DNA of 64,000 nt from a virus. The stretch lies in IMG/VR virus record IMGVR_UViG_3300020171_000003, positions 1 through 64,000 of that record; one strand, 5' to 3'. The position numbers and the translations under genes are program-made. The notes under the pieces were generated by a model, which made no database searches, was not told the origin of the DNA, and saw nothing but the letters and a program-made list of their open reading frames with translations. This document shows positions 50,921 through 63,757 of the stretch, piece after piece (within the stretch, counting starts at the first letter, position 1; each line of letters starts with the position of its first letter).

Positions 50921-52162
50921 ATGCCTAGAGGTGCAAGTGATATACCTGATCTAAGATTGTCGAGGATTAATAAACTTATCCAAAAGTTTATGACACCCCC
51001 TTCAATGCTTTTTTCTAATTTGTTTGGTACGGATAATGCTGATTCTGATACGATTAAATGGGAAAGTCAAATAGGAAATAGAGGTGTTACTCCTATGAAG
51101 GCTCCTGGTTCTCCTTCACAAGTTACCGCTCCGGTTGGTGTTTCTCAGAATGAAGCGGTTGCTGCTTTTTGGGGAGAAAAAGAGTATCATGACGAGGAAT
51201 TTTTGAATAACCTTAGAGAGGAAGGAACTGCTTCTACTTATCTTTCCGCCAAAAGACGTATTGCAAGAGAGTTTAGAAGTATGCGTAATAGGTGTGATAG
51301 GCGTCTTGAACTTTTGTTTGCTCAGATGCTTATTAATGGTGAAATTACTTATAGCGATAAAGGCGGGGTAAAACTATCTATTGATTATGCAATTCCTTCT
51401 GAAAATCAAGTTACTTTGGGTGCTAATTACTATTGGACAAACGGGACTCAACGGAATATTGTTGGGGATATTATGGATGCTAAAATCGTAGTGTCTGACT
51501 CTTGTACTGGTATTATTGATCACATGGTGATTAATAGCAATACGCTTAAAGTGATGGCAATGGATTCTTCTATTCAGACTTTGCTTTCTAAATCTAATTT
51601 TGGGAACGGTGATCTTTTCGGAAAATCAGCCGGAGGTATTATTGGAGTTCGTCCTAGGGTTCTTGGCGAATTGCTTGGTATTCCTAATATTGTTGTTTAT
51701 GATGAGAAGTATGTTATTGAGCAGACTTTGACAGCCGCGGTTGCTGCGGGTGGGACAACGGTTTATGTTGGTAATGCCGCTGATTTTACCACTGGTACTG
51801 CTGTTCTTCATGATATTTCTGCTGGTACTTCTGAATCAGTTACAGTTTCAGCGGTTAGTACAGAAGCAGGTACTCTTACTATTGGAGCAACCACTGCTGC
51901 GTTTAGGGCTGGAGAAGATAAGATTACGCAAACCCTACCGTTTATGCCTAATAACAAAACTCTGTTGATGGCTTCTACAGTAGAAGGTTCTAAGATTGCG
52001 GAATTTATTCAAGCTCCCTACGGGTTAAATAGAGCATATGGTCTTTTTGCTGATACAAAAGAAAACTGGGATCCTGATGGAATCTGGCTGCGTGTGCAGA
52101 ATAAAGGTCTTCCCGTCTTGTATCATCGGGATGCTATTTATTCATTAACATTTGCAGCCTAA
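50921..52162 (+). CDS. Major capsid protein, lambda gpE-like
   Basis: 413 residues. HK97-fold gpE features: N-terminal PSMLFSNLF, middle RRIAREFRSMRNRCDRRLE helix, LGIPNIVVYDEKY and the ending DGIWLRVQNKGLPVL. An Ig-like or beta insert (about 265-325: TLTAAVAAGGTTVYVGNA...) stands out and may project from the capsid. GAAGGGAGGTGATTTAGT precedes the ATG. Confidence 0.85.
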   Translation: MPRGASDIPDLRLSRINKLIQKFMTPPSMLFSNLFGTDNADSDTIKWESQIGNRGVTPMKAPGSPSQVTAPVGVSQNEAVAAFWGEKEYHDEEFLNNLREEGTASTYLSAKRRIAREFRSMRNRCDRRLELLFAQMLINGEITYSDKGGVKLSIDYAIPSENQVTLGANYYWTNGTQRNIVGDIMDAKIVVSDSCTGIIDHMVINSNTLKVMAMDSSIQTLLSKSNFGNGDLFGKSAGGIIGVRPRVLGELLGIPNIVVYDEKYVIEQTLTAAVAAGGTTVYVGNAADFTTGTAVLHDISAGTSESVTVSAVSTEAGTLTIGATTAAFRAGEDKITQTLPFMPNNKTLLMASTVEGSKIAEFIQAPYGLNRAYGLFADTKENWDPDGIWLRVQNKGLPVLYHRDAIYSLTFAA

Positions 52163-52177
52163 AAAGGAGGTGGATAG

Positions 52178-52651
52178 ATGAATAGACCAAATCCTTCAGT
52201 GGCTTTTGTGGAAGATGTTTCTTTATACAATGAACCTCCCTTGATGGCTGTTGTCTCAGGGGAGCTTCTTGTATCGAGAATGAATCATGTTTTAGGAACC
52301 GCACATTTTCCTGGTAGGGTTAGAAATATTTGGTTGTCTGTTGGTAATTGTGGAACAGACAAAACAGATGCTTTGAATATAAGCGGGGAAGTTTATATTA
52401 ATGGATCAAGTTGTTTGACAACTACTCCAAAAATTGCAGGTGTATCAGGAGAAGCAGGAGCACAAAAAACTACTAAAGTTATCGGTGATACTGCTATTGT
52501 CCAAGCGGTTGTGAACGCTTCTGCTAATTCATACAATGCAGGTGATATTTTTACTTGTAATTTCAAAATTCAGAGAACTACTCCGGAAGACGAAATTGAA
52601 TCAATTGTTCTTGTGGTTGATCTTTTTCCGAACACACCGGTATCAGTTTAA
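52178..52651 (+). CDS. Probable head-associated structural protein
   Basis: 157 residues, beta-rich (GRVRNIWLSVGNCG, GDIFTCNFKIQR). AAAAGGAGGTGGATAG precedes the ATG, as strong as for the capsid genes, so it is probably abundant: a second decoration or fibre-like head protein. No family recognised. Confidence 0.6.
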   Translation: MNRPNPSVAFVEDVSLYNEPPLMAVVSGELLVSRMNHVLGTAHFPGRVRNIWLSVGNCGTDKTDALNISGEVYINGSSCLTTTPKIAGVSGEAGAQKTTKVIGDTAIVQAVVNASANSYNAGDIFTCNFKIQRTTPEDEIESIVLVVDLFPNTPVSV

Positions 52652-52664
52652 AAGGAGGGCAATC

Positions 52665-53135
52665 GTGATTATCGAAAAGCTTAAATTACATGGAACACTT
52701 AAATGCGGGGATACTGTTTTTCATCCAGGTGAATACAGTATCCCTAATATTCCTAAAGAGCTTGTTTTAGAAGCCCGGATGGGAGCAAAAATTATAACGA
52801 TTCTTGCTCCCATTATAGGGACAATTGATTTTACAAAACAAGCAGAAGAACGAAAGAAAGAAGCGGATGATTTTAGTGCCTCTTGGAAAGCTATGGAACC
52901 AGATGCTTTTAAATCTTTTGTTTCTCAAGTAGAAAATAGAACAATTTTAGTAGCGCATGGACAGTATGATAAAGTCCTTGCAAAATGGTTTAGATACTTT
53001 CCTACTGATCCTTTTCCTGGAACAGAAAAGAAAGAAGAACCGTCTGCACCTGCCGCAGAAAGTGAGAAGGCAGGAAAAGCGAAAACAAAAATTGAGAAAA
53101 AACCTAAATCTAGATTAGTAAAGAGAAAGGTATAA
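52665..53135 (+). CDS. Unknown structural-operon protein, GTG start
   Basis: 156 residues from GTG (MIIEKLKLHGTLKCGDTVFH); AAAAGGAGGGCAATC decides this start. Begins with a small beta domain, then a helical part and a lysine/alanine/proline-rich basic tail (KAKTKIEKKPKSRLVKRKV). May be a head completion protein. Confidence 0.55.
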   Translation: MIIEKLKLHGTLKCGDTVFHPGEYSIPNIPKELVLEARMGAKIITILAPIIGTIDFTKQAEERKKEADDFSASWKAMEPDAFKSFVSQVENRTILVAHGQYDKVLAKWFRYFPTDPFPGTEKKEEPSAPAAESEKAGKAKTKIEKKPKSRLVKRKV

Positions 53136-53590: not shown

Positions 53591-54208
53591 TTGTCCATTG
53601 CTTTAGACATAAAAGGTATTTTAAATGAGACCGGATACTCTTTGTCTATTATTAGAGATAAAGAAATCTCCGGAGAAAAGGGTGAATTTAAATCCAATTC
53701 TCAGATTACAAAACCTTTTGTAAGACAGCATTTTTTAGAAGGTGTTTTACCTTATGATACAAAGATTATTCCTGGTGATGTTGTTAAAACAGTAGTAAAT
53801 TCTGAATTTTTTCTTGCAATGAATGTTACGGATGTAGTTTTAGAAAATACCTGTATAAAGAAAGAAACTGTTTTTTATAGATGCAATGTGAGCGGTGAAG
53901 TTTTGCGAGTTAGCGGGGAAGAAAGAAACTTGCAGACATACGCTTTACAGCCCATATATCAATCAATAAGCAATTTATGTTATGCTGTGATTGCAGATAC
54001 AGACGCAGGTACAGATATTTTGCAAGAAGAAAGAATTGGACAGATAGAAACGAATAAATTGTTTTTATTTATTCCGCATTCTGTAGGAATACGTCCTTTA
54101 GATATTTATATTCCTTATTCAGGAGAGTATTATAAAGTTGAGTCTGTTGAAAAGTTTCGTTTTCCGGCTGTAGATTATTGTATTTTATCTGAAAATACCA
54201 TAGACTAA
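53591..54208 (+). CDS. Head-tail joining-like protein, TTG start
   Basis: 205 residues; the TTG at 53591 has GAGGAC upstream and no ATG is better placed. Beta-rich (IIPGDVVKTVVNSEFFL, YYKVESVEKFRFP). Position between connector and tail genes suggests a neck protein. Last gene before the modification island. Confidence 0.5.
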   Translation: MSIALDIKGILNETGYSLSIIRDKEISGEKGEFKSNSQITKPFVRQHFLEGVLPYDTKIIPGDVVKTVVNSEFFLAMNVTDVVLENTCIKKETVFYRCNVSGEVLRVSGEERNLQTYALQPIYQSISNLCYAVIADTDAGTDILQEERIGQIETNKLFLFIPHSVGIRPLDIYIPYSGEYYKVESVEKFRFPAVDYCILSENTID

Positions 54209-54233
54209 ACTATTTAATCAACTGAGGTTGAAA

Positions 54234-56294
54234 ATGAAAAAAAAGATATTATTTGTAGGTGAAGCACCTTACGCATTTACTGGTAATTCTAATATGATGA
54301 ATGCTTTACTTTCATCTGTTGATACTGATAAATACGAGGTGTGTTGTTTTGGTTCAGGTGAGTCTCAAATAAAAGGAGATTCTATATTTCATTCTATGCC
54401 TTTTACTATTATCCCTTCTTTCAAACACGGTGATTTTTGGGGTAATGTCCATTTGTTAGAAGTTATTAATTCAAGTTCTTTTGATGTATTATTTATGGTA
54501 GGAATAGATTTGTGGAGATATGCTTCTATTTTTCCTGAAATAGTGAAATTAAGACAAGTTAAAAAATTTAAATGGGTATTTCTTTTTCCTTACGATTTTG
54601 AAAATTACAGACGAGAATGGGCAGGTTGGATTAATGCAATAGATATTCCGTTAGTTTATTCCCAGTATGGAGAAGATCTTTTAAAAGAATATCATCCTAA
54701 TATTACTTACTTTAGACCACCTTTGTTTGGCTCAGAGATTTTTACTTCTTTCCCTGTTGAGCAAAAGAAGATGGAAAAAAGTAAAATATTTTCTCAAGTA
54801 GCAAACAAGTTTATTTTTGGTTTTATTGGTCAGAATCAATTACGAAAAGATCCTTTAAGAGTTTTAGAAGCTTTCTCTTTGTTCCATAAAAAGAATCCAA
54901 ATACTGCTTTATATCTTCATACAGAAAATCAAGGTCCAAAAGGGGTTTATAATATAAATCAAGCTGTGTTTGATCTTGATTTTCCTCCACATACAATTTT
55001 ACTTAAAAAAGAAGGTCAAATTTACAGTCAATTGGATATGATCCGAATTTATAATGCAATTGATTGTTTAGTGAATGCTTCTTTTCAAGAAGGTTTATCT
55101 TGGACAGTTTTAGAAGCAATGTTATCAGGATGTCCTGTTATTGCTTCGGATACAACCGCTCATCCTGAGTTATTATGGGATGCAGGCATTCTTGTTAAAA
55201 GAACGGATCGAGTTCTTTTACCAATAGGAGGTATTACTGAAGGTGTTGTTTATGCTTCTACTCATGCGTGTAATACTGAAAAATTAGCGGAAGCAATGGC
55301 TACTATGTATTTAAATGATGAATATAGATTAGAATGTTCTGAACAAGGTTTACTTAGAGGAAAAGAATGGTTAGCAAGTGTTTCTAATGTGAATGATGTT
55401 TTAGATGTTGTTTCTATAGAGAAACCGGTTCAAAGAGTAGAAAGAATAAAAGGTGTTTTATTTGGTCAAAAAGCAAGTGCTGGTGACATTCTAATGACTA
55501 CACAATGTTTGAAAGGACTGAAAGAACTTCATCCGGATTTGCCTTTAAATTACATGACTTCTCAAAAATATATGAATATTTTAGAAGGGAATCCGTATAT
55601 TGAAAATATTTATTCTTGGGATGATTCTTTGCCTGCTCGTTTTGATTTTTATTACAATCCACATGAGCAACGTATTTTACCAGGACATTGGGGTAGAAAC
55701 TCAAATTCCCTATTGTCGGACTTTTATTGGAAAATTTTAAAAGTAGAACCTGGTTCGTTTTTTATTTATCCTCAAGAAATTCCTTCTGAATTTTCAGTTA
55801 AAATTCTTTCAGTAGATAGACCCATTGCTGTTGTTTATTCCGCAGGAGCAGATAGACCTTTTAGAGAATACCAATATTTTGGAATAGTATGCAATGAGAT
55901 TAAAGATAGATATGTTACAATTCAATTAGGAGGACATGATGATTATCCTGCAGGAGCAGAAATTGATCTAAGAGGACAACTAACTTATAGACAAGAAGCT
56001 TGGGTAGTCCAGAGAGCTTCACTTGGTTTAACTGTGGATACTTTTGGAGCACATTTAGTAGGTGCTTTAGGTGTTTCTCAAGTTACTTTACCAGGTTCAA
56101 GTAATAGCAGGGTAGTTCAACCAAAACAAACAGCAGGTGATCTTATTATATTAGATCCTGATTATGTAAAAGTGTGTCCTGGTTTAGGGCCTTGTTCTGC
56201 AAGTGTTAGAGATTGTCCTTTGCCTTGTATTGGTTCTATTTCTCCTAAAAAAATTATAGAGTCAATTGATTTTATAGAAAGGAAGGGTTTATGA
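54234..56294 (+). CDS. Two-domain glycosyltransferase (GT4-like + GT9-like)
   Basis: 686 residues from MKKKILFVGEAPY (TGAGGT before the ATG). First domain (1-400): GT-B fold with FGFIGQNQLRKDP and EGLSWTVLEAMLSGCPVIAS, the GT4 donor site. Second (405-680): FGQKASAGDILMTTQCLKGL, AVVYSAGADRPF and VDTFGAHLVGALGV, as in heptosyltransferase-like GT9 proteins. Fusion of these two is uncommon. It should add two sugars, or build and transfer a glycan. Confidence 0.75.
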   Translation: MKKKILFVGEAPYAFTGNSNMMNALLSSVDTDKYEVCCFGSGESQIKGDSIFHSMPFTIIPSFKHGDFWGNVHLLEVINSSSFDVLFMVGIDLWRYASIFPEIVKLRQVKKFKWVFLFPYDFENYRREWAGWINAIDIPLVYSQYGEDLLKEYHPNITYFRPPLFGSEIFTSFPVEQKKMEKSKIFSQVANKFIFGFIGQNQLRKDPLRVLEAFSLFHKKNPNTALYLHTENQGPKGVYNINQAVFDLDFPPHTILLKKEGQIYSQLDMIRIYNAIDCLVNASFQEGLSWTVLEAMLSGCPVIASDTTAHPELLWDAGILVKRTDRVLLPIGGITEGVVYASTHACNTEKLAEAMATMYLNDEYRLECSEQGLLRGKEWLASVSNVNDVLDVVSIEKPVQRVERIKGVLFGQKASAGDILMTTQCLKGLKELHPDLPLNYMTSQKYMNILEGNPYIENIYSWDDSLPARFDFYYNPHEQRILPGHWGRNSNSLLSDFYWKILKVEPGSFFIYPQEIPSEFSVKILSVDRPIAVVYSAGADRPFREYQYFGIVCNEIKDRYVTIQLGGHDDYPAGAEIDLRGQLTYRQEAWVVQRASLGLTVDTFGAHLVGALGVSQVTLPGSSNSRVVQPKQTAGDLIILDPDYVKVCPGLGPCSASVRDCPLPCIGSISPKKIIESIDFIERKGL

Positions 56295-56986
56295 GACCTT
56301 TAGTAATTGCTTCAAATATGTTAATGGAAGCGAACAATGATTTAGAAGGTTGGATTGAGAATATGCAACAAGTTACTGATTTGGGCATTCTTGTTGTGGA
56401 CGGCGGTTCTACTGACGGAACAAAAGAGATTTTAGAGGCTGCTGGAGTTATTGTTATTACAGATAATATAATTCAAAGAGAAGGATACGGACCTGCAAGA
56501 AATCAATTAAGAAAACTTTGTAAAGAGAACTTTCCAGAAGCTCATTGGATGGCTTATTTTGATGCTGATGAAAGAATCAATGAAAAAGACATTCATTTTT
56601 TGAAATGGGTTCAAAACTATTTAAATGAAAGCGTTTCTGATGTTGTTGCTTTTCCAAGAATTGATTGGTTTGATAAAGAGAAAACTAAATCAAATAATGA
56701 TATACGGATAGTTCCGGATTTTCAAGCAAGAATGACAAGATTAAATGCTCCTTTGGAATATATAAGAATTTGTCATGAACAGATTGTAACAACTAAAGGC
56801 ATTTTTTGTAATATAGATGTTTGTCCGCCTATTCATCATTTTCATAGGTCAGCAAGTAAAGATAAGCGTGATTACATTGGTAAGGTCTGTGCTATGCTTC
56901 ATTCTAAAGATCCATATGGACATACTTATCCGAAACACCATAAAGAAGATTATTATTTTGATTTGTATCAGAAAGAAGGTTTATGA
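56291..56986 (+). CDS. GT2 glycosyltransferase
   Basis: 231 residues. VVDGGSTDGTKEIL near residue 36 and the metal-binding YFDADERI near 94 are GT-A/GT2 hallmarks; HFHRSASKDKRDY follows. ATGA overlap with the previous gene. Works on an activated sugar in the cytoplasm. Confidence 0.8.
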   Translation: MRPLVIASNMLMEANNDLEGWIENMQQVTDLGILVVDGGSTDGTKEILEAAGVIVITDNIIQREGYGPARNQLRKLCKENFPEAHWMAYFDADERINEKDIHFLKWVQNYLNESVSDVVAFPRIDWFDKEKTKSNNDIRIVPDFQARMTRLNAPLEYIRICHEQIVTTKGIFCNIDVCPPIHHFHRSASKDKRDYIGKVCAMLHSKDPYGHTYPKHHKEDYYFDLYQKEGL

Positions 56987-57615
56987 AGGAAGAAATTTTT
57001 ATTTTTGGAAATTCTATGTGCTGTACTCCTTCTAAGGAATCTTATCTTGATTTACTGAAACAAGATTATGATGTTAACGGTATGTGGATGAGAGGAATGA
57101 CAATTTGGCATGTTAATAAATATCTAAGAAATATTGTTAGAGGAGATAATTCTTGGATAATTATTAATGTAGGAATAGTTGAGGCTGTTACTAGAAAATC
57201 CTATCATGTTTTATACTATTGGTTAAATGAATTACTTTCACATGATGCTGATGAACTGTTTAAAGAAACTATTTTACCATACTTGCAAAATATTTCTTTA
57301 AGTATGGATAAAGAAGATGTTTCTTTTTGGAATATAATTCCATCCGGTTGTTTTTTACGGTTGTTTGAACTTTGTTTAAAAAAATTAGAAAGTTATAGAA
57401 TCATTGTGGTAGGACCTGCTTATCCAAAACCTTTAGAAAATACTTCAAGATTTTCTATTTGTATTAATTATGCTTCTATTCTAAAAAATTTAGAAAAAAT
57501 TTATTTTATTGATACTTGGAACAAGTGTAAAGAGGATTCTATTGATGATGCTCATTTGAATGCAAATGGACATAAAAAGATTTACAATCTCATAAAGGAG
57601 AAAATTAATGGATAA
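56983..57615 (+). CDS. SGNH/GDSL-like hydrolase
   Basis: 210 residues. FIFGNSMCC near the start is a block-I Ser candidate, IIINVGIVEAV a block-III-like Asn strand, and DDAHLNANGHKKI the block-V DxxH. SGNH enzymes in glycan loci add or remove acetyl groups. ATGA-coupled to the GT2 gene. Confidence 0.65.
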   Translation: MKEEIFIFGNSMCCTPSKESYLDLLKQDYDVNGMWMRGMTIWHVNKYLRNIVRGDNSWIIINVGIVEAVTRKSYHVLYYWLNELLSHDADELFKETILPYLQNISLSMDKEDVSFWNIIPSGCFLRLFELCLKKLESYRIIVVGPAYPKPLENTSRFSICINYASILKNLEKIYFIDTWNKCKEDSIDDAHLNANGHKKIYNLIKEKING

Positions 57616-58558
57616 AAGAAATGTGTTTACCTCTACAGGAATAAAATTATTACAACATCCGGAAGTCATACATTTTTTACAGAGAGGACGATTTATTCCT
57701 GTTTCATTACAAGTTGCCCCTACTTCAAGATGTAATTTGAATTGTTCCTTTTGTTCTAACAGCAAAAGGAGTAAACATGAAGATTTGGATAGAAATGAAT
57801 TGTTTTATTTTATTGATGTTTTACAAAGAACAGGACTTAAAACAGTAGAAATCACTGGTGGCGGTGATCCTACAATGTATCATAGCATTAATGAGTTGAT
57901 AGAGTGTATTTATGAATCTGATCTGGAAGTCGGATTAATTTCAAATGGTATTTTACTTAAAGAGAAAATTAGTCCTAGAAATTTAAATTCATTAACTTGG
58001 TTAAGAGTCTCTTTAAACTCGTTGGAGTATTGTGACGATATTGATTTACCTAAAATTAATGGTACACTGGGATTCAGTTTTGTAATTCATTCTAAAAATA
58101 TAAATAACATATTAAAATATGGTAAAAGAATAAGAAAATTGGTGGATAAGTACCATGCTTCTTATGTCCGCATTGTTCCGGATTGTTTACCTGGAGAAGA
58201 TGAAAAAAGATTGAATGTAATCTGTGAAGCTTTTGTTCGTGAATTTGGGGAACCGTTTTTCTTTCAAGAGAAGATTTTTAGGAAACCAGATAACTGTTGG
58301 TGGGGATATTTAAAACCGTTTCTTCTTCATGATAAGTTTGTTTATCCTTGTAGTTCTGTTGTTCTTAATTCAGGATCTGAAGGAGTATTTCATGAAAAAT
58401 TTAGAGTAGCTACTATGGATGATTTTCTTTTAAATTATAGACAAGGTTTTAAAGTAAATTCTTTTCCTACAGCTAATTGTGATAGGTGTGTTTTTGCAAA
58501 TCAGAATGATATGGTAGATTCAATTTTGAATCCTAATAAAATGAGGAATTTTTTATAA
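57608..58558 (+). CDS. Radical SAM enzyme
   Basis: 316 residues. SRCNLNCSFCSNSK holds CxxxCxxC for the 4Fe-4S cluster, TVEITGGGDPTM the SAM-binding GGE-like motif (here GGGDP), and the C-terminal cysteines (CWWGY, YPCSS, NCDRC) are SPASM/twitch-like. Radical SAM enzymes in such loci modify sugars or peptides. Its presence inside a phage virion operon is unusual. Confidence 0.8.
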   Translation: MDKRNVFTSTGIKLLQHPEVIHFLQRGRFIPVSLQVAPTSRCNLNCSFCSNSKRSKHEDLDRNELFYFIDVLQRTGLKTVEITGGGDPTMYHSINELIECIYESDLEVGLISNGILLKEKISPRNLNSLTWLRVSLNSLEYCDDIDLPKINGTLGFSFVIHSKNINNILKYGKRIRKLVDKYHASYVRIVPDCLPGEDEKRLNVICEAFVREFGEPFFFQEKIFRKPDNCWWGYLKPFLLHDKFVYPCSSVVLNSGSEGVFHEKFRVATMDDFLLNYRQGFKVNSFPTANCDRCVFANQNDMVDSILNPNKMRNFL

Positions 58559-59088
58559 TGAGAAAATTACAAATAGGTCCAGGAAAAGCTTATTTCCCCG
58601 GATGGGACAATGTGGATATATTTTCAAATGTTCGGGCAGATCTTTATGCCTCTGCTCTTGCTTTACCTTACGAACCTGAAACTTTTGATTTGTTATATAG
58701 TTCACATGTCCTTGAGCATATAAATAGAAACATGACAGTAGCAGCATTGAGTCATTGGCATTCGTTGTTACGCAAAGGAGGGGTGCTTCGTTTAGCGGTT
58801 CCCAGTTTCTCTGCTGTTGTTGAGTACTATAATAAAGAAAAAGATTTGGTTCCTTTACTTGGTCTTCTATTTGGAGGACAAAGGTTTATTTTAGATTCTC
58901 ATTGTTGTGTCTTTGATGAAATGTTTTTAACCAAGTTATTAAAACAAGTAGGATTTACTGAAATAAGAAAATGGGATTGGAGAAAGACGGAACATGCTCA
59001 ATTTGATGATTATTCCCAAGCGTATCTTCCCCATATGGATAAAGAAGAAGGTCTTCTAATGTCTTTGAATATGGAGGCCGTAAAATGA
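58558..59088 (+). CDS. SAM-dependent methyltransferase
   Basis: 176 residues. LQIGPGKAYFPGWDNVD is the degenerate motif I, and FDLLYSSHVLEHI with LLRKGGVLRLAVP marks a class I enzyme, as in small methyltransferases of surface-glycan clusters. Overlaps the radical SAM gene by 1 bp and the next gene by 4 bp. Confidence 0.75.
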   Translation: MRKLQIGPGKAYFPGWDNVDIFSNVRADLYASALALPYEPETFDLLYSSHVLEHINRNMTVAALSHWHSLLRKGGVLRLAVPSFSAVVEYYNKEKDLVPLLGLLFGGQRFILDSHCCVFDEMFLTKLLKQVGFTEIRKWDWRKTEHAQFDDYSQAYLPHMDKEEGLLMSLNMEAVK

Positions 59089-60362
59089 AAAATATTTATA
59101 TTTATGATCCAGAACCTTTTCTTCATGATTATGTTTCTCATAAATTTTTAACTCCTTTATTGAAGTATGGTACTACTAAAGGAATGACTATTAAAAAGAT
59201 AAACTCTTTTGATGAAGCGAAAAACGGAATAGTTTTATCTTTCAGTGGACATTTAAAATCAGATGTTATTAAGAAATTAAAAGAGGATAATAACTTTATT
59301 GGTTCTTTTGATATTACAGATAGCACATGGTTAAGTGAAGCTTATAGATGGGATCATGAAGCTTGTTCTTCTTTAGATGCTATTTTTAAATTTAGCGGAA
59401 TTCCAAAGTATCAATATTCACAAGAACTCCAGATAGGTGAAGATTTAACTTATTATAAACATGATTATCCTTACATGGAAGATAAAGAATGGCAGTATTT
59501 TTGTAACTTGAAAGAAAACAATAAAATTATACCTATGCCTCATATTCCGTGGCAGCAATATAATATTGTTCCTATTCACTATTTAAAGAAAAGAGACGTT
59601 CTTGTAAGGGGAGGAAATCATTATTTACGTTTTCATTTGTTTCTTAATTTTTTAAAATTTGGATTAACAAGTAAATGGTCCGGTTTCTTTATGGCTGATT
59701 ATCATAAATCTAAAATGGATGCAGATCATAGATTTTGTGATAATTGTTGTGAAATATGGAACAGAAATAATAATAGATTTCCTTATGAAGAATACTTAAA
59801 TATTCCTATTTATGAGAAATGTAATAATGGTCATATTCCTTGGCCTATTACGGATGAAACCACTTTTCAGAATAAGAACAATCATAGATGGAATAATAAA
59901 TGTATTCCTATTTATTATTGGTTAACAGAAACTTTTGTTAATAAACACGGATATGTGGACATGAAGAAAGTAGAGGATTGTTTCTCTATTTTTTATCTTC
60001 ATCCGGATGATTTAGGGAATGTTTTAGCTCACCATTTATTTACAGCAGATTATAAATGGATTTATAGCATTGATATTCCTCCAAGATTTTGGGAATGTAG
60101 TGCGGCGAAAACAGTAAGCTTAATGCCAAGATGGACAAGAAATCAAACTCATTTTCCAAATTTGATTGAGAATGAGCATTATATTACTTTTGATGAGGCT
60201 TTTGAAGACCTTGAATTAGTAATGGACACAAAACAAGAACAATATGACCATATAACAAATAATTGTTATAATTTATATCAAAAATGGATTAAAGGTGAAG
60301 AATACGGAATATCAATTAATTTGATGAATCATATATTTAATCAGATTGAAGAAAGGATATAA
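59085..60362 (+). CDS. Putative GT-B glycosyltransferase, CgeB-like
   Basis: 425 residues. Cysteine/tryptophan-rich middle (RFCDNCCEIW), and near the end FWECSAAKTVSLMP then FPNLIENEHYITFDEAFEDLE, which resembles the donor end of CgeB-type glycosyltransferases (ECxAA/G...L..). The rest is divergent, so the substrate cannot be guessed. Confidence 0.5.
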   Translation: MKNIYIYDPEPFLHDYVSHKFLTPLLKYGTTKGMTIKKINSFDEAKNGIVLSFSGHLKSDVIKKLKEDNNFIGSFDITDSTWLSEAYRWDHEACSSLDAIFKFSGIPKYQYSQELQIGEDLTYYKHDYPYMEDKEWQYFCNLKENNKIIPMPHIPWQQYNIVPIHYLKKRDVLVRGGNHYLRFHLFLNFLKFGLTSKWSGFFMADYHKSKMDADHRFCDNCCEIWNRNNNRFPYEEYLNIPIYEKCNNGHIPWPITDETTFQNKNNHRWNNKCIPIYYWLTETFVNKHGYVDMKKVEDCFSIFYLHPDDLGNVLAHHLFTADYKWIYSIDIPPRFWECSAAKTVSLMPRWTRNQTHFPNLIENEHYITFDEAFEDLELVMDTKQEQYDHITNNCYNLYQKWIKGEEYGISINLMNHIFNQIEERI

Positions 60363-60962
60363 ATGCATTACGATATTGATTACTTTGAAAACGGATTAGA
60401 AACAGGTAAAAGTTGCTATCAGAATTACCGTTGGTTACCTGAAGAAACTCTTTCCTTAGCTATGCGTTTCATTGATCATTTTAATTTAACTCCTGAGGAT
60501 ACTATCTTGGATTACGGATGTTCCAAAGGATATTTAGTGAAAGCTTTTCGTTTACTTCATAGAAAAGCTTTTGGTTATGATATAAGTCCTTATGCTTTAT
60601 CTTGTGCTCCTCCGGAAGTAAAAGATTTTTGTTTTGATTATCTACCAAGAAGACCTTTTAATTTTTGCATTGCTAAAGATGTTTTTGAACATATTTCTTT
60701 ACCAGATTTGCAAAGACTTTTAACAGGAAATTTAAATACAAATACTCTCTTTGCAATTATTCCTCTTGGTGATAATAAAATTTATAGATCTTCAATAAAT
60801 AATCTTGATCCCTCTCACATTGTCTGTTATAGTGAGGTAGAATGGATGAAATTTTTCGGAAAATGTGGTTGGATTGTGAAAGATTTTACTTTTAGTTTTC
60901 CAGGATTAAAAGAACATCATCCTGAAAGATCACACGGTTTTTTTACTTTGGTGGAAGTATGA
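60363..60962 (+). CDS. SAM-dependent methyltransferase
   Basis: 199 residues. TILDYGCSKGYLVKAF is motif I, AFGYDISPYAL motif II, FCIAKDVFEHI motif IV. Class I, similar to small-molecule or sugar methyltransferases. Abuts the GT gene without spacing. Confidence 0.8.
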   Translation: MHYDIDYFENGLETGKSCYQNYRWLPEETLSLAMRFIDHFNLTPEDTILDYGCSKGYLVKAFRLLHRKAFGYDISPYALSCAPPEVKDFCFDYLPRRPFNFCIAKDVFEHISLPDLQRLLTGNLNTNTLFAIIPLGDNKIYRSSINNLDPSHIVCYSEVEWMKFFGKCGWIVKDFTFSFPGLKEHHPERSHGFFTLVEV

Positions 60963-61357
60963 ATGAATTTAAATTAGATTTATTTGTTCTTAATTCGGAA
61001 AGAAATCTTAACCAACCTTTTATTTGGGAAGATTTTTCAAAACACCATATATTAGGTGATGTATATTTAGTCAATAATAATTTACAGATAAATAGTACCA
61101 AGAAGTATAGTCCTTACTTCTTTTTGATTTATGATGATGAGATGATAGAAGAACAAGCGACCGTAGCTCTCCGTTCATTTGCTGATGCGGAGTATGATGT
61201 TGTAAAGCTATATAAGAAAGAGAAAGATGATAAAATAAGTATACAACCGAGATTTTTTAAATCAAGTATAGTTTTACCTGAATTTGGGTTATTACCAAAT
61301 AATTGGAAAGAATTAAATATGGAGACTTGTTTAAATGGCTTTCTCTTTACAGTTTGA
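60959..61357 (+). CDS. Unknown, possibly GT-A-like fragment
   Basis: 132 residues. FFLIYDDEMIEE could be a DxD-type site, and PRFFKSSIVLPEF with a late METCLNG recalls the second half of GT-A enzymes. Shorter than a full enzyme. ATGA-coupled to 60363 and overlapping the tail gene start by 23 bp. Confidence 0.45.
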   Translation: MNEFKLDLFVLNSERNLNQPFIWEDFSKHHILGDVYLVNNNLQINSTKKYSPYFFLIYDDEMIEEQATVALRSFADAEYDVVKLYKKEKDDKISIQPRFFKSSIVLPEFGLLPNNWKELNMETCLNGFLFTV

Positions 61358-61889
61358 GTTAAATCCGAATGATAAAAGGAAGTTTCTTACCGCTTGTGAT
61401 AGATTGATGGCTAATATACCACACGCAAGCAGAAAGATTAATCAGGATTCAGCTTATGCTTTGCAACAAAATTTGATTTCCAATATTTCAAGTCAAAAGT
61501 TTTCTTATCCGGCTCATAATGAGCGTTACTCAGAATGGAAACAACAATACGGTAAAGGTAAAGGTAAATCAGATTTCTGGAATTTATATGGTGATTTATT
61601 AAAAGCTATTCAAGTGAAAATAGTACAATGGAAAGATCAGTCTGAATTTTTTGTAGGGATTCCTCCTAAGATTCAAGATTCTGGAGGGAAATCTTGGTTT
61701 GGTGTAGGGGAAAAAGGAGCAACAAAAGAAATTTTAAGTTATGCACTTATTATGGAAAAAGGCGGTCAGAATGGGAAACAACCGCCCAGACCTTTATTCG
61801 AACCTACAGAAGGAGAATTTGGAGCTTCTGATAGAAGATCAAGAATTGCTAACCAAGGACTAATAAGGATTTTACAATCATGGAGATAA
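61335..61889 (+). CDS. Tail/neck component, HK97-gp10-like
   Basis: 184 residues, basic. N-terminal helix with NPNDKRKFLTACDRL, middle ending in YALIMEKGGQ, and PPRPLFEPTEGEF near the end, the usual ending of gp10-type tail-completion proteins. Its position just after the modification island resumes the structural order. Confidence 0.6.
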   Translation: MAFSLQFELNPNDKRKFLTACDRLMANIPHASRKINQDSAYALQQNLISNISSQKFSYPAHNERYSEWKQQYGKGKGKSDFWNLYGDLLKAIQVKIVQWKDQSEFFVGIPPKIQDSGGKSWFGVGEKGATKEILSYALIMEKGGQNGKQPPRPLFEPTEGEFGASDRRSRIANQGLIRILQSWR

Positions 61890-63163: not shown

Positions 63164-63757
63164 ATGGCTATTACTGGACCTGTTACAAAAAATACAACCA
63201 CTCCTGTTATAGGATTGGCGCAAATTCGTTTAGGATCGTCTGGAACCAATATTGCAAGTGTTGCTCCTGTTTTGACTGCTAGCAATTCAATTGGTTCTGT
63301 GGCAAGTACTAAATTTGTATCTGCTATTGACTTTTTCAGATTGGAGTCTGGTTATCCTTTAATGGAGGATGCTGCTTATCCGATTCGTGAGAAAGCTTCA
63401 ATGGAAGTTGCTTTTAAAGAAATTACCCCGGCTAACATTGCTTATGCTCTTGGTTTAGATGGTGCTTCTGGAGAATATTCTGCGGCTCATTCTGGTGAAA
63501 TTTCTTTAGGAACTGTCAAAACTCCAGCTTTTATTCGTTTGGAGTCTGTTTATACTTATCCTGATGGAAGTAATAAAATGCAGATCATTTTCCCCAGGGC
63601 TCAGATTTTGTCTAATGTTGAGTTAGATCATAATGCAGAGGAGCCTTTGGCTACTCCTATGATGATTGAAGCAAAACGGGCAGATTCTAATGTTGATGGT
63701 GGGAATGCTGTTTGGGATAATAAACCTTATGGACGAATTTTTTGGTCCGTTTCATAA
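63164..63757 (+). CDS. Major tail tube protein
   Basis: 197 residues. AIDFFRLESGYPLMEDAAYP and VAFKEITPANIAYALGLD match tail-tube proteins of phages with this head type, and PRAQILSNVELDH is a typical late strand. GAAGGGAGGTGAAATAAT before the ATG predicts high output. One ring-forming subunit of the tail tube. Confidence 0.75.
   Translation: MAITGPVTKNTTTPVIGLAQIRLGSSGTNIASVAPVLTASNSIGSVASTKFVSAIDFFRLESGYPLMEDAAYPIREKASMEVAFKEITPANIAYALGLDGASGEYSAAHSGEISLGTVKTPAFIRLESVYTYPDGSNKMQIIFPRAQILSNVELDHNAEEPLATPMMIEAKRADSNVDGGNAVWDNKPYGRIFWSVS

Follow-up and report, generated by a model that had tools for sequence, protein, structure and literature searches.

An eight-gene island between the head and neck genes

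The window analysed here is a stretch of 64,000 nucleotides from an IMG/VR virus record of 80,532 bases (IMGVR_UViG_3300020171_000003). Between its head and neck genes lies an island of eight open reading frames (ORFs), at 54228-61357 and all on the same strand, encoding glycosyltransferases (GTs), methyltransferases and a radical S-adenosylmethionine (SAM) enzyme. The junctions are tight, with overlaps of 4, 4, 8, 1, 4, 0, 4 and 23 bp in order, the last one with the neck gene. The eight co-oriented and coupled genes described in the original prediction are thus all present; the 4-bp overlaps that it reported hold for half of the junctions and not for the others. Its placement of these genes between neck and tail genes had to be corrected, since the capsid side lies upstream of the island and the neck gene downstream. 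The eight genes are as follows, in window positions:

54228..56294, +, GT4-GT9 fusion glycosyltransferase, 5' anchor of the island (TTG start at 54228 or ATG at 54234; PF13692, 7e-12; fusion conserved)
56291..56986, +, GT2 glycosyltransferase, gene 2 of most islands (PF00535, 2.6e-9)
56983..57615, +, SGNH-like hydrolase or transferase (alignment with the homologs of loci L197 and L214)
57608..58558, +, radical SAM enzyme (rSAM) with a C-terminal four-cysteine, twitch-like auxiliary-cluster domain (PF04055, 1.5e-12; invariant cysteines; fold)
58558..59088, +, class I SAM methyltransferase MT1 (PF13489, Methyltransf_23, 2.8e-8)
59085..60362, +, P6, orphan protein of 425 aa (its single homolog lies in the L197 island; not confirmed as GT-B/CgeB)
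60363..60962, +, class I SAM methyltransferase MT2, conserved partner of the rSAM gene (phrog_27380, 5e-20; Methyltransf_23, 6e-6)
60959..61357, +, P8, predicted miniature GT-A-fold protein, 3' anchor of the island (hidden Markov model (HMM) conservation, AlphaFold (AF2) model, Foldseek)

The site was surveyed in other viral contigs with a GT4-GT9 profile, which gave 33 loci, and with a profile of the major capsid protein (MCP), blind to the island, which matched 237 contigs, the best 80 of which were taken. The order TerL-portal-protease-decoration-MCP-(g157)-g149-orf0-island-neck-g156-g89-g197 is conserved, and the synteny of the island segment, shared by dozens of independent contigs, shows that the arrangement is not due to chance. 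Throughout the lineage, this segment is a variable island whose site, from orf0 to the neck gene, is fixed. The GT4-GT9 gene opens it and P8 closes it, and the co-oriented cargo between them spans as little as 2 bp in L253 and over 8 kb at the other extreme. Among 63 cargo proteins scanned, the families found were Methyltransf_24 (14/63), B12-binding radical SAM (7), DegT aminotransferase, CmcI/rhamnosyl O-methyltransferase, pyruvyltransferase, GT8, and GNAT and hexapeptide acyltransferases.

L197 repeats the order of the window (GT4GT9-GT2-SGNH-rSAM-(HNH)-MT1-P6), and L090, whose contig was binned with a metagenome-assembled genome of an alphaproteobacterium, carries at the same site GT4GT9-GT2-rSAM-cytidylyltransferase-MT1-MT2-P8, with MT1 partly seen. 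The synteny survey for radical SAM genes in phage head-tail intervals, proposed together with the original prediction, revealed the twitch rSAM family in 13/69 loci having both orf0 and GT4-GT9, that is, by our own count, in seven distinct islands besides that of the window (eight in total). Two further arrangements were observed. In L010 (352-3090), which its portal (E 6e-172) places in the same phage group, a GT2-rSAM pair (rSAM 51% identity) lies directly 5' of the portal gene and not at the orf0-neck site; in L012, whose portal is of a different family, the order is rSAM-portal with the GT4-GT9 fusion after the MCP. HNH endonuclease genes adjoin the rSAM gene within islands at L197:11740-12264 and L012:40-672 and are possible agents of cargo exchange.

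In the window, the island is preceded by TerL, portal, an S49-type protease (phrog_53, 1e-77), a decoration-like protein and the MCP, then by g157, g199, g149 and orf0. The flanking features used below are:

50921..52162, +, MCP, HK97-type (phrog_29, 1.3e-31), without a Ser/Thr C-terminal tail
52178..52651, +, g157, small virion-operon protein restricted to genomes with the GT4-GT9 island
53591..54208, +, orf0, conserved gene bounding the island on its left (synteny; sister-clade homologs bear Thr/Ser tags)
61335..61889, +, tail completion/Neck1-like protein, right boundary of the island (phrog_26, 6e-5; synteny)
63164..63757, +, g197, putative major tail (tube) protein (synteny: two ORFs before a 1178-aa ORF of tape-measure size)

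The radical SAM enzyme and the other island proteins

Single-protein scans of IMG/VR with rSAM, the protease and P6 gave nothing, and profiles were needed; with the rSAM profile, 94 viral and 208 cellular matches passed tblastn, and the best 80 of each were taken. The first full-length relatives belong to Pelagibacter phage HTVC008M (30% identity) and Synechococcus phage SynMITS9220M01 (26%), where the rSAM gene lies inside a sugar-gene cluster and the next gene is in both cases an MT2 homolog. Full-length relatives occur in about 70 viral contigs, and PMC7029224 reports radical-SAM cassettes in hypervariable regions of pelagimyophages; together with the eight distinct islands, these relatives contradict the earlier impression that a radical SAM member is unfamiliar in such a setting. 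The MT2 family is found near rSAM in about 60/80 loci with near-full-length matches, immediately downstream of it in 45, and the bacterial relatives of the pair sit among GT and epimerase genes. The rSAM-MT2 pair is a module present in marine phages and bacteria.

In 51 aligned homologs, the CxxxCxxC motif (C42/C46/C49) and four C-terminal cysteines (C230/C248/C291/C294) are invariant. The AF2 model of rSAM (316 aa; predicted local distance difference test (pLDDT) 90.7) displays a partial TIM-barrel and satisfies the radical SAM superfamily criteria. DesII is its top structural neighbour (Z 20.3, 305 residues aligned), tied with SkfB (19.9) and followed by BlsE (18.4), with SuiB and viperin below. 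The four C-terminal cysteines, predicted to hold one auxiliary cluster, fit the twitch (half-SPASM) subclass; a full SPASM domain is not indicated, no PF13186 match being detected and only four C-terminal cysteines being invariant. Identity with prokaryotic viperins was rejected (51 bits against an NCBIfam viperin cut-off of 180), and membership of MoaA was rejected on score. DesII, BlsE and SpeY, whose substrates are sugars, share with the window enzyme the fold and a twitch/SPASM-type C-terminal cluster domain, at about 15% identity. A sugar substrate is favoured for rSAM by its gene neighbours and by the matches of its model to these three enzymes, the fold alone being insufficient.

The original gene assignments are supported to some degree for seven of the eight genes. 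Those of the GT4-GT9 fusion, GT2, radical SAM enzyme and two methyltransferases are backed by profiles, with the GT9 half lying below its family cut-off: the C-terminal half of gene 1 (residues 401-688) matches NCBIfam heptosyltransferase III TIGR02201 at 1.9e-11 and 43.6 bits, against a cut-off of 170, and no PF01075 match was listed for it in the Pfam scan. The fusion is also conserved in A3 and 33 loci. In the SGNH-like protein, Ser11, Asp188 and His191 are invariant in three homologs, as is the block II Gly, and block III reads VGxxE with the Asn replaced (the SGNH pattern being Ser in block I, Gly in II, Asn in III and DxxH in V); neither Pfam nor PDB gave a match for this protein. The acylated sugar put forward earlier has lost ground, as no acyltransferase is present and the SGNH-like gene is the one gene that points to it. 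P6 had been read as a CgeB-like GT; no significant match to such a GT-B protein (PF13524-type) was found with Pfam, PDB sequence search or hhalign.

P8 (132 aa) is conserved across the phage group, with 28 HMM matches. Its AF2 model (pLDDT 88.3) adopts a miniature GT-A fold, half the usual GT-A size, and matches SunS (4e-5), ThuS and the small STIV A197 in Foldseek (E range 4e-5 to 4e-3); Y58 and E61 are invariant within a YDDE-like motif. The GT-A likeness suggested in the original prediction is therefore retained, whereas its description as a fragment is not. P8 is, on the basis of this model, a miniature GT-A-fold protein with a predicted enzymatic role; decay of a larger GT was rejected, the gene being conserved and intact at the same position across many genomes.

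A family search of the whole genome revealed no NDP-sugar (nucleoside diphosphate sugar) epimerase/dehydratase or NTP_transferase gene. The activated sugars must therefore come from the host, and the island is not the complete pathway that had been proposed.

Empty sites and threonine/serine tags in a nested clade

Empty sites, in which orf0 is directly followed by the neck gene, were found in L238, L241, L259, L264, L268, L271, L278, L283 and others. The MCPs of island-less phages end in a Thr/Ser tail, e.g. TSTTTTSSSTTTTTTA. Such a tail is carried by 11/12 island-less MCPs and by 0/47 distinct island-bearing ones, the exception being L270, which has neither island nor tail. Similar tails are present on orf0 and on g197 of the island-less clade. 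Tags ending in TTTTTTA occur on several virion proteins that are not homologous to one another, in L238, L241, L250, L259, L264, L271, L274, L278 and L283 (MCP, orf0 and g197) and also in L322, L326 and L329, all of them phages with a GALNT-like GT2 (see below). An origin of the poly-Thr tails by DNA slippage was rejected, as 6-11 distinct codons are used per 18 residues. On the MCP tree, the tail maps to a single change, and the phages that have it make up one clade placed within the island-bearing ones (Shimodaira-Hasegawa-like approximate likelihood ratio test (SH-aLRT) 100, quick tree); the view that tail and island exclude each other through many independent events was rejected on this ground. 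P8 is retained between orf0 and the neck gene in the Thr/Ser-tag phages L250, L254, L274 and L275, all without GT4-GT9, and in L274 a 729-aa ORF of unknown function adjoins it.

An orthologous GT2 (44-60% identity) was detected in 5/5 large records of the tagged clade and is absent from the island genomes. It resembles the animal enzyme that glycosylates tags of this type: its best PDB relative is polypeptide N-acetylgalactosamine (GalNAc) transferase 10 (profile E 1.2e-6), and the DxHC and GGE motifs match. The tag peptide ATSTTTTSSSTTTTTTA may represent the acceptor type of this GALNT-like GT2. A scan with the enzyme highlighted further phages, including G081, with a distant MCP, and G085, with no MCP match. 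In these further GT-bearing phages, the tagged proteins are a head decoration protein (phrog_49, 1e-23), a major tail protein with an Ig-like domain (phrog_807, 4e-31), the head-tail adaptor Ad1 (phrog_477, 2e-16) and a minor tail protein (phrog_290, 3e-47). No tagged protein was found in the GT-bearing 52-kb fragment G084, nor were tags found in the control genomes G000, G024, G025 and G041 or in 80 background viral loci (1.15 Mb); control genome G028 gave one marginal 81-aa ORF. The pairing of GALNT-like enzyme and tag is thus replicated to some degree outside the phage group, and by their sequences the tags and the GALNT-like GT2 are a candidate mucin-type virion glycosylation system. Within the literature searched, no paper was found that deals with GALNT-like enzymes of phages or with Thr-rich tails on their capsids. 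Among isolated phages, the window has no DNA-level match; neither the MCP nor the GALNT-like GT found a match there, and hence no cultured member of the group was found.

Virion glycosylation and its alternatives

These data support the originally predicted cassette of glycan-building and methylating genes within the virion operon, and a virion target is plausible. We consider it moderately probable that the segment is a variable virion-glycosylation island, whose late-expressed enzymes make and tailor a glycan carried by virion proteins. This reading is suggested by the fixed orf0-to-neck position, the GT4-GT9 and P8 ends and the variable cargo across the phage group, by cargo families of sugar-tailoring types, by the occurrence of the rSAM-MT2 pair in the sugar clusters of other phages, by the nearness of the rSAM fold to DesII, a sugar enzyme, by the GT genes between MCP and neck genes in phages phiPsal1 and Mae-JY09, and by the O-methyltransferase and GT genes within the virion operon of Corndog, a phage with reported virion glycosylation. 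Indirect support comes from the island-less nested clade, with its virion-protein tags and GALNT-like GT2, a pairing that recurs in unrelated phages.

In such a scheme, the whole segment would be transcribed late, together with the head and tail genes. GT4-GT9, GT2 and P8 would assemble a short glycan, possibly of a heptose-like sugar given the GT9 half, on at least one virion protein from activated sugars of the host. The twitch rSAM would alter a sugar carbon by epimerisation, dehydrogenation or deoxygenation, methyl groups would be placed on the glycan by MT1 and MT2, and the SGNH-like protein would attach or take off an acyl group. Exchange of cargo between phages could then give particles with changing surface glycans. 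Transcription, acceptor, sugar identity and the order of the steps are what we infer.

Several observations weigh on the other side. GT9 is a lipopolysaccharide (LPS)-type family, and the clusters that hold relatives of the rSAM-MT2 pair are interpreted as sets of host-surface (O-antigen) genes. In the island phages no acceptor was recognised: neither the window phage nor any of 73 island loci has a Thr/Ser-tagged ORF. The swap of tag and island is a single evolutionary event in the phage group, and their correlation cannot be counted as many. Finally, GT4-GT9 divergence does not follow MCP divergence (Spearman 0.09, against 0.57 for portal and MCP), indicating that recombination moves the island without regard to the capsid.

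The main and serious rival is a late remodelling of host LPS or capsule, for superinfection exclusion or to prevent progeny from binding to debris, with the virion-operon site serving for timing only. Besides the heptosyltransferase-like half of gene 1, it is in agreement with the cyanophage and pelagiphage clusters, in which genes of the heptose pathway or for UDP-glucose dehydrogenase adjoin the rSAM-MT2 relatives, with the bacterial relatives among GT and epimerase genes, and with PMC7029224, where such phage GTs are interpreted as modifying the O-chain. However, the location beside head and neck genes does not change within the group, the island showed no membrane flippase, polymerase or anchoring enzyme, and the nested clade replaces the island with tags on virion proteins; we regard this rival as rather unlikely. 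An action of rSAM on a peptide (ribosomally synthesized and post-translationally modified peptide (RiPP)-like, or protein maturation) instead of a sugar is compatible with the structural ties to the peptide-modifying SkfB and SuiB, but no precursor-peptide gene was noted, the 316-aa model has no RiPP recognition domain and the neighbours in phage and bacterial loci are GTs and methyltransferases, which makes it improbable. Sugar hypermodification of the phage DNA is very improbable: glycosylated DNA does occur in phages and a pathway for DNA-base modification is encoded in this genome, but its genes are at another place, among replication genes of the opposite strand, whereas the island is in the late region with sugar-tailoring cargo and no hydroxymethyl-pyrimidine enzyme is listed. 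The genes concerned, in a region of mostly minus-strand early genes (window 2404-37106), are QueD, a QueE-like radical SAM enzyme, GTP cyclohydrolase and a queuine tRNA-ribosyltransferase-like (Tgt/DpdA-type) enzyme, which judging by gene content form a predicted 7-deazaguanine DNA-modification pathway separate from the island.

Virion glycosylation cassettes are a known kind. In Corndog, GT genes and one for an O-methyltransferase lie between those for portal and protease and were suggested to act on the capsid (PMC4351075), and PMC12363180 and PMC12619734 cite capsid and tail-tube glycosylation, at a C-terminal position, for Che8, Corndog and Myrna. As in these phages (Corndog being of cluster O), GT and methyltransferase genes are here co-oriented inside the virion structural operon. 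The present, putative cassette differs in its eight genes from head to neck, its GT4-GT9 fusion, miniature GT-A gene, radical SAM enzymes and highly variable cargo; no sequence relation to the mycobacteriophage glycosylation genes appeared in the searches made. A Thr/Ser C-terminal acceptor tail is absent from the island phages and present in the sister clade, and is not established as a requirement of the mycobacteriophage type. Pontimonas phage phiPsal1 (GT4, 26% identity, with MT/GT2) and Microcystis phage Mae-JY09 (GT4, 28% identity, with unannotated genes) carry cassettes between MCP and neck/adaptor genes, but of 1-4 genes, with no GT9 fusion seen and no radical SAM annotated, and their capsids are unrelated by tblastn. 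HTVC008M and SynMITS9220M01 share the homologous rSAM with the adjoining MT2 homolog, whereas their clusters lie in a metabolic/hypervariable region with NDP-sugar enzymes and not in the head-neck interval. The GT4-GT9/P8-anchored radical-SAM island is a new form of this kind, and the tag system is the more novel lead.

To our knowledge, phage virion glycosylation has been demonstrated for a handful of mycobacteriophages only. If virion glycosylation is the function of the island, it would be a lineage-wide and fast-recombining trait of uncultured phages in which radical enzymes tailor sugars. More tentatively, the group may possess two interchangeable virion-glycan systems, a radical-tailored recombining head-neck island and a mucin-like GalNAc-transferase acting on Thr/Ser tags of capsid, decoration, adaptor and tail proteins. 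Virus particles bearing glycans modified by a radical SAM enzyme would be a novelty, as would mucin-type tags in a prokaryotic system, and the enzymes could serve for placing designed glycans on protein tags. The sister clade provides a testable rule, in which a GALNT-like GT2 together with C-terminal Thr/Ser tails predicts glycosylated virion proteins from sequence.

Scans for promoter-like sites (56 against 53 in shuffled sequence) and terminator-like sites (9 against 5.5) were uninformative. The 199-aa ORF downstream of g157 has no detected homologs, and its true start may be further downstream; it shares 116 overlapping bases with g157 (window 52178-53135). By inference, g157 itself is a possible glycan acceptor.

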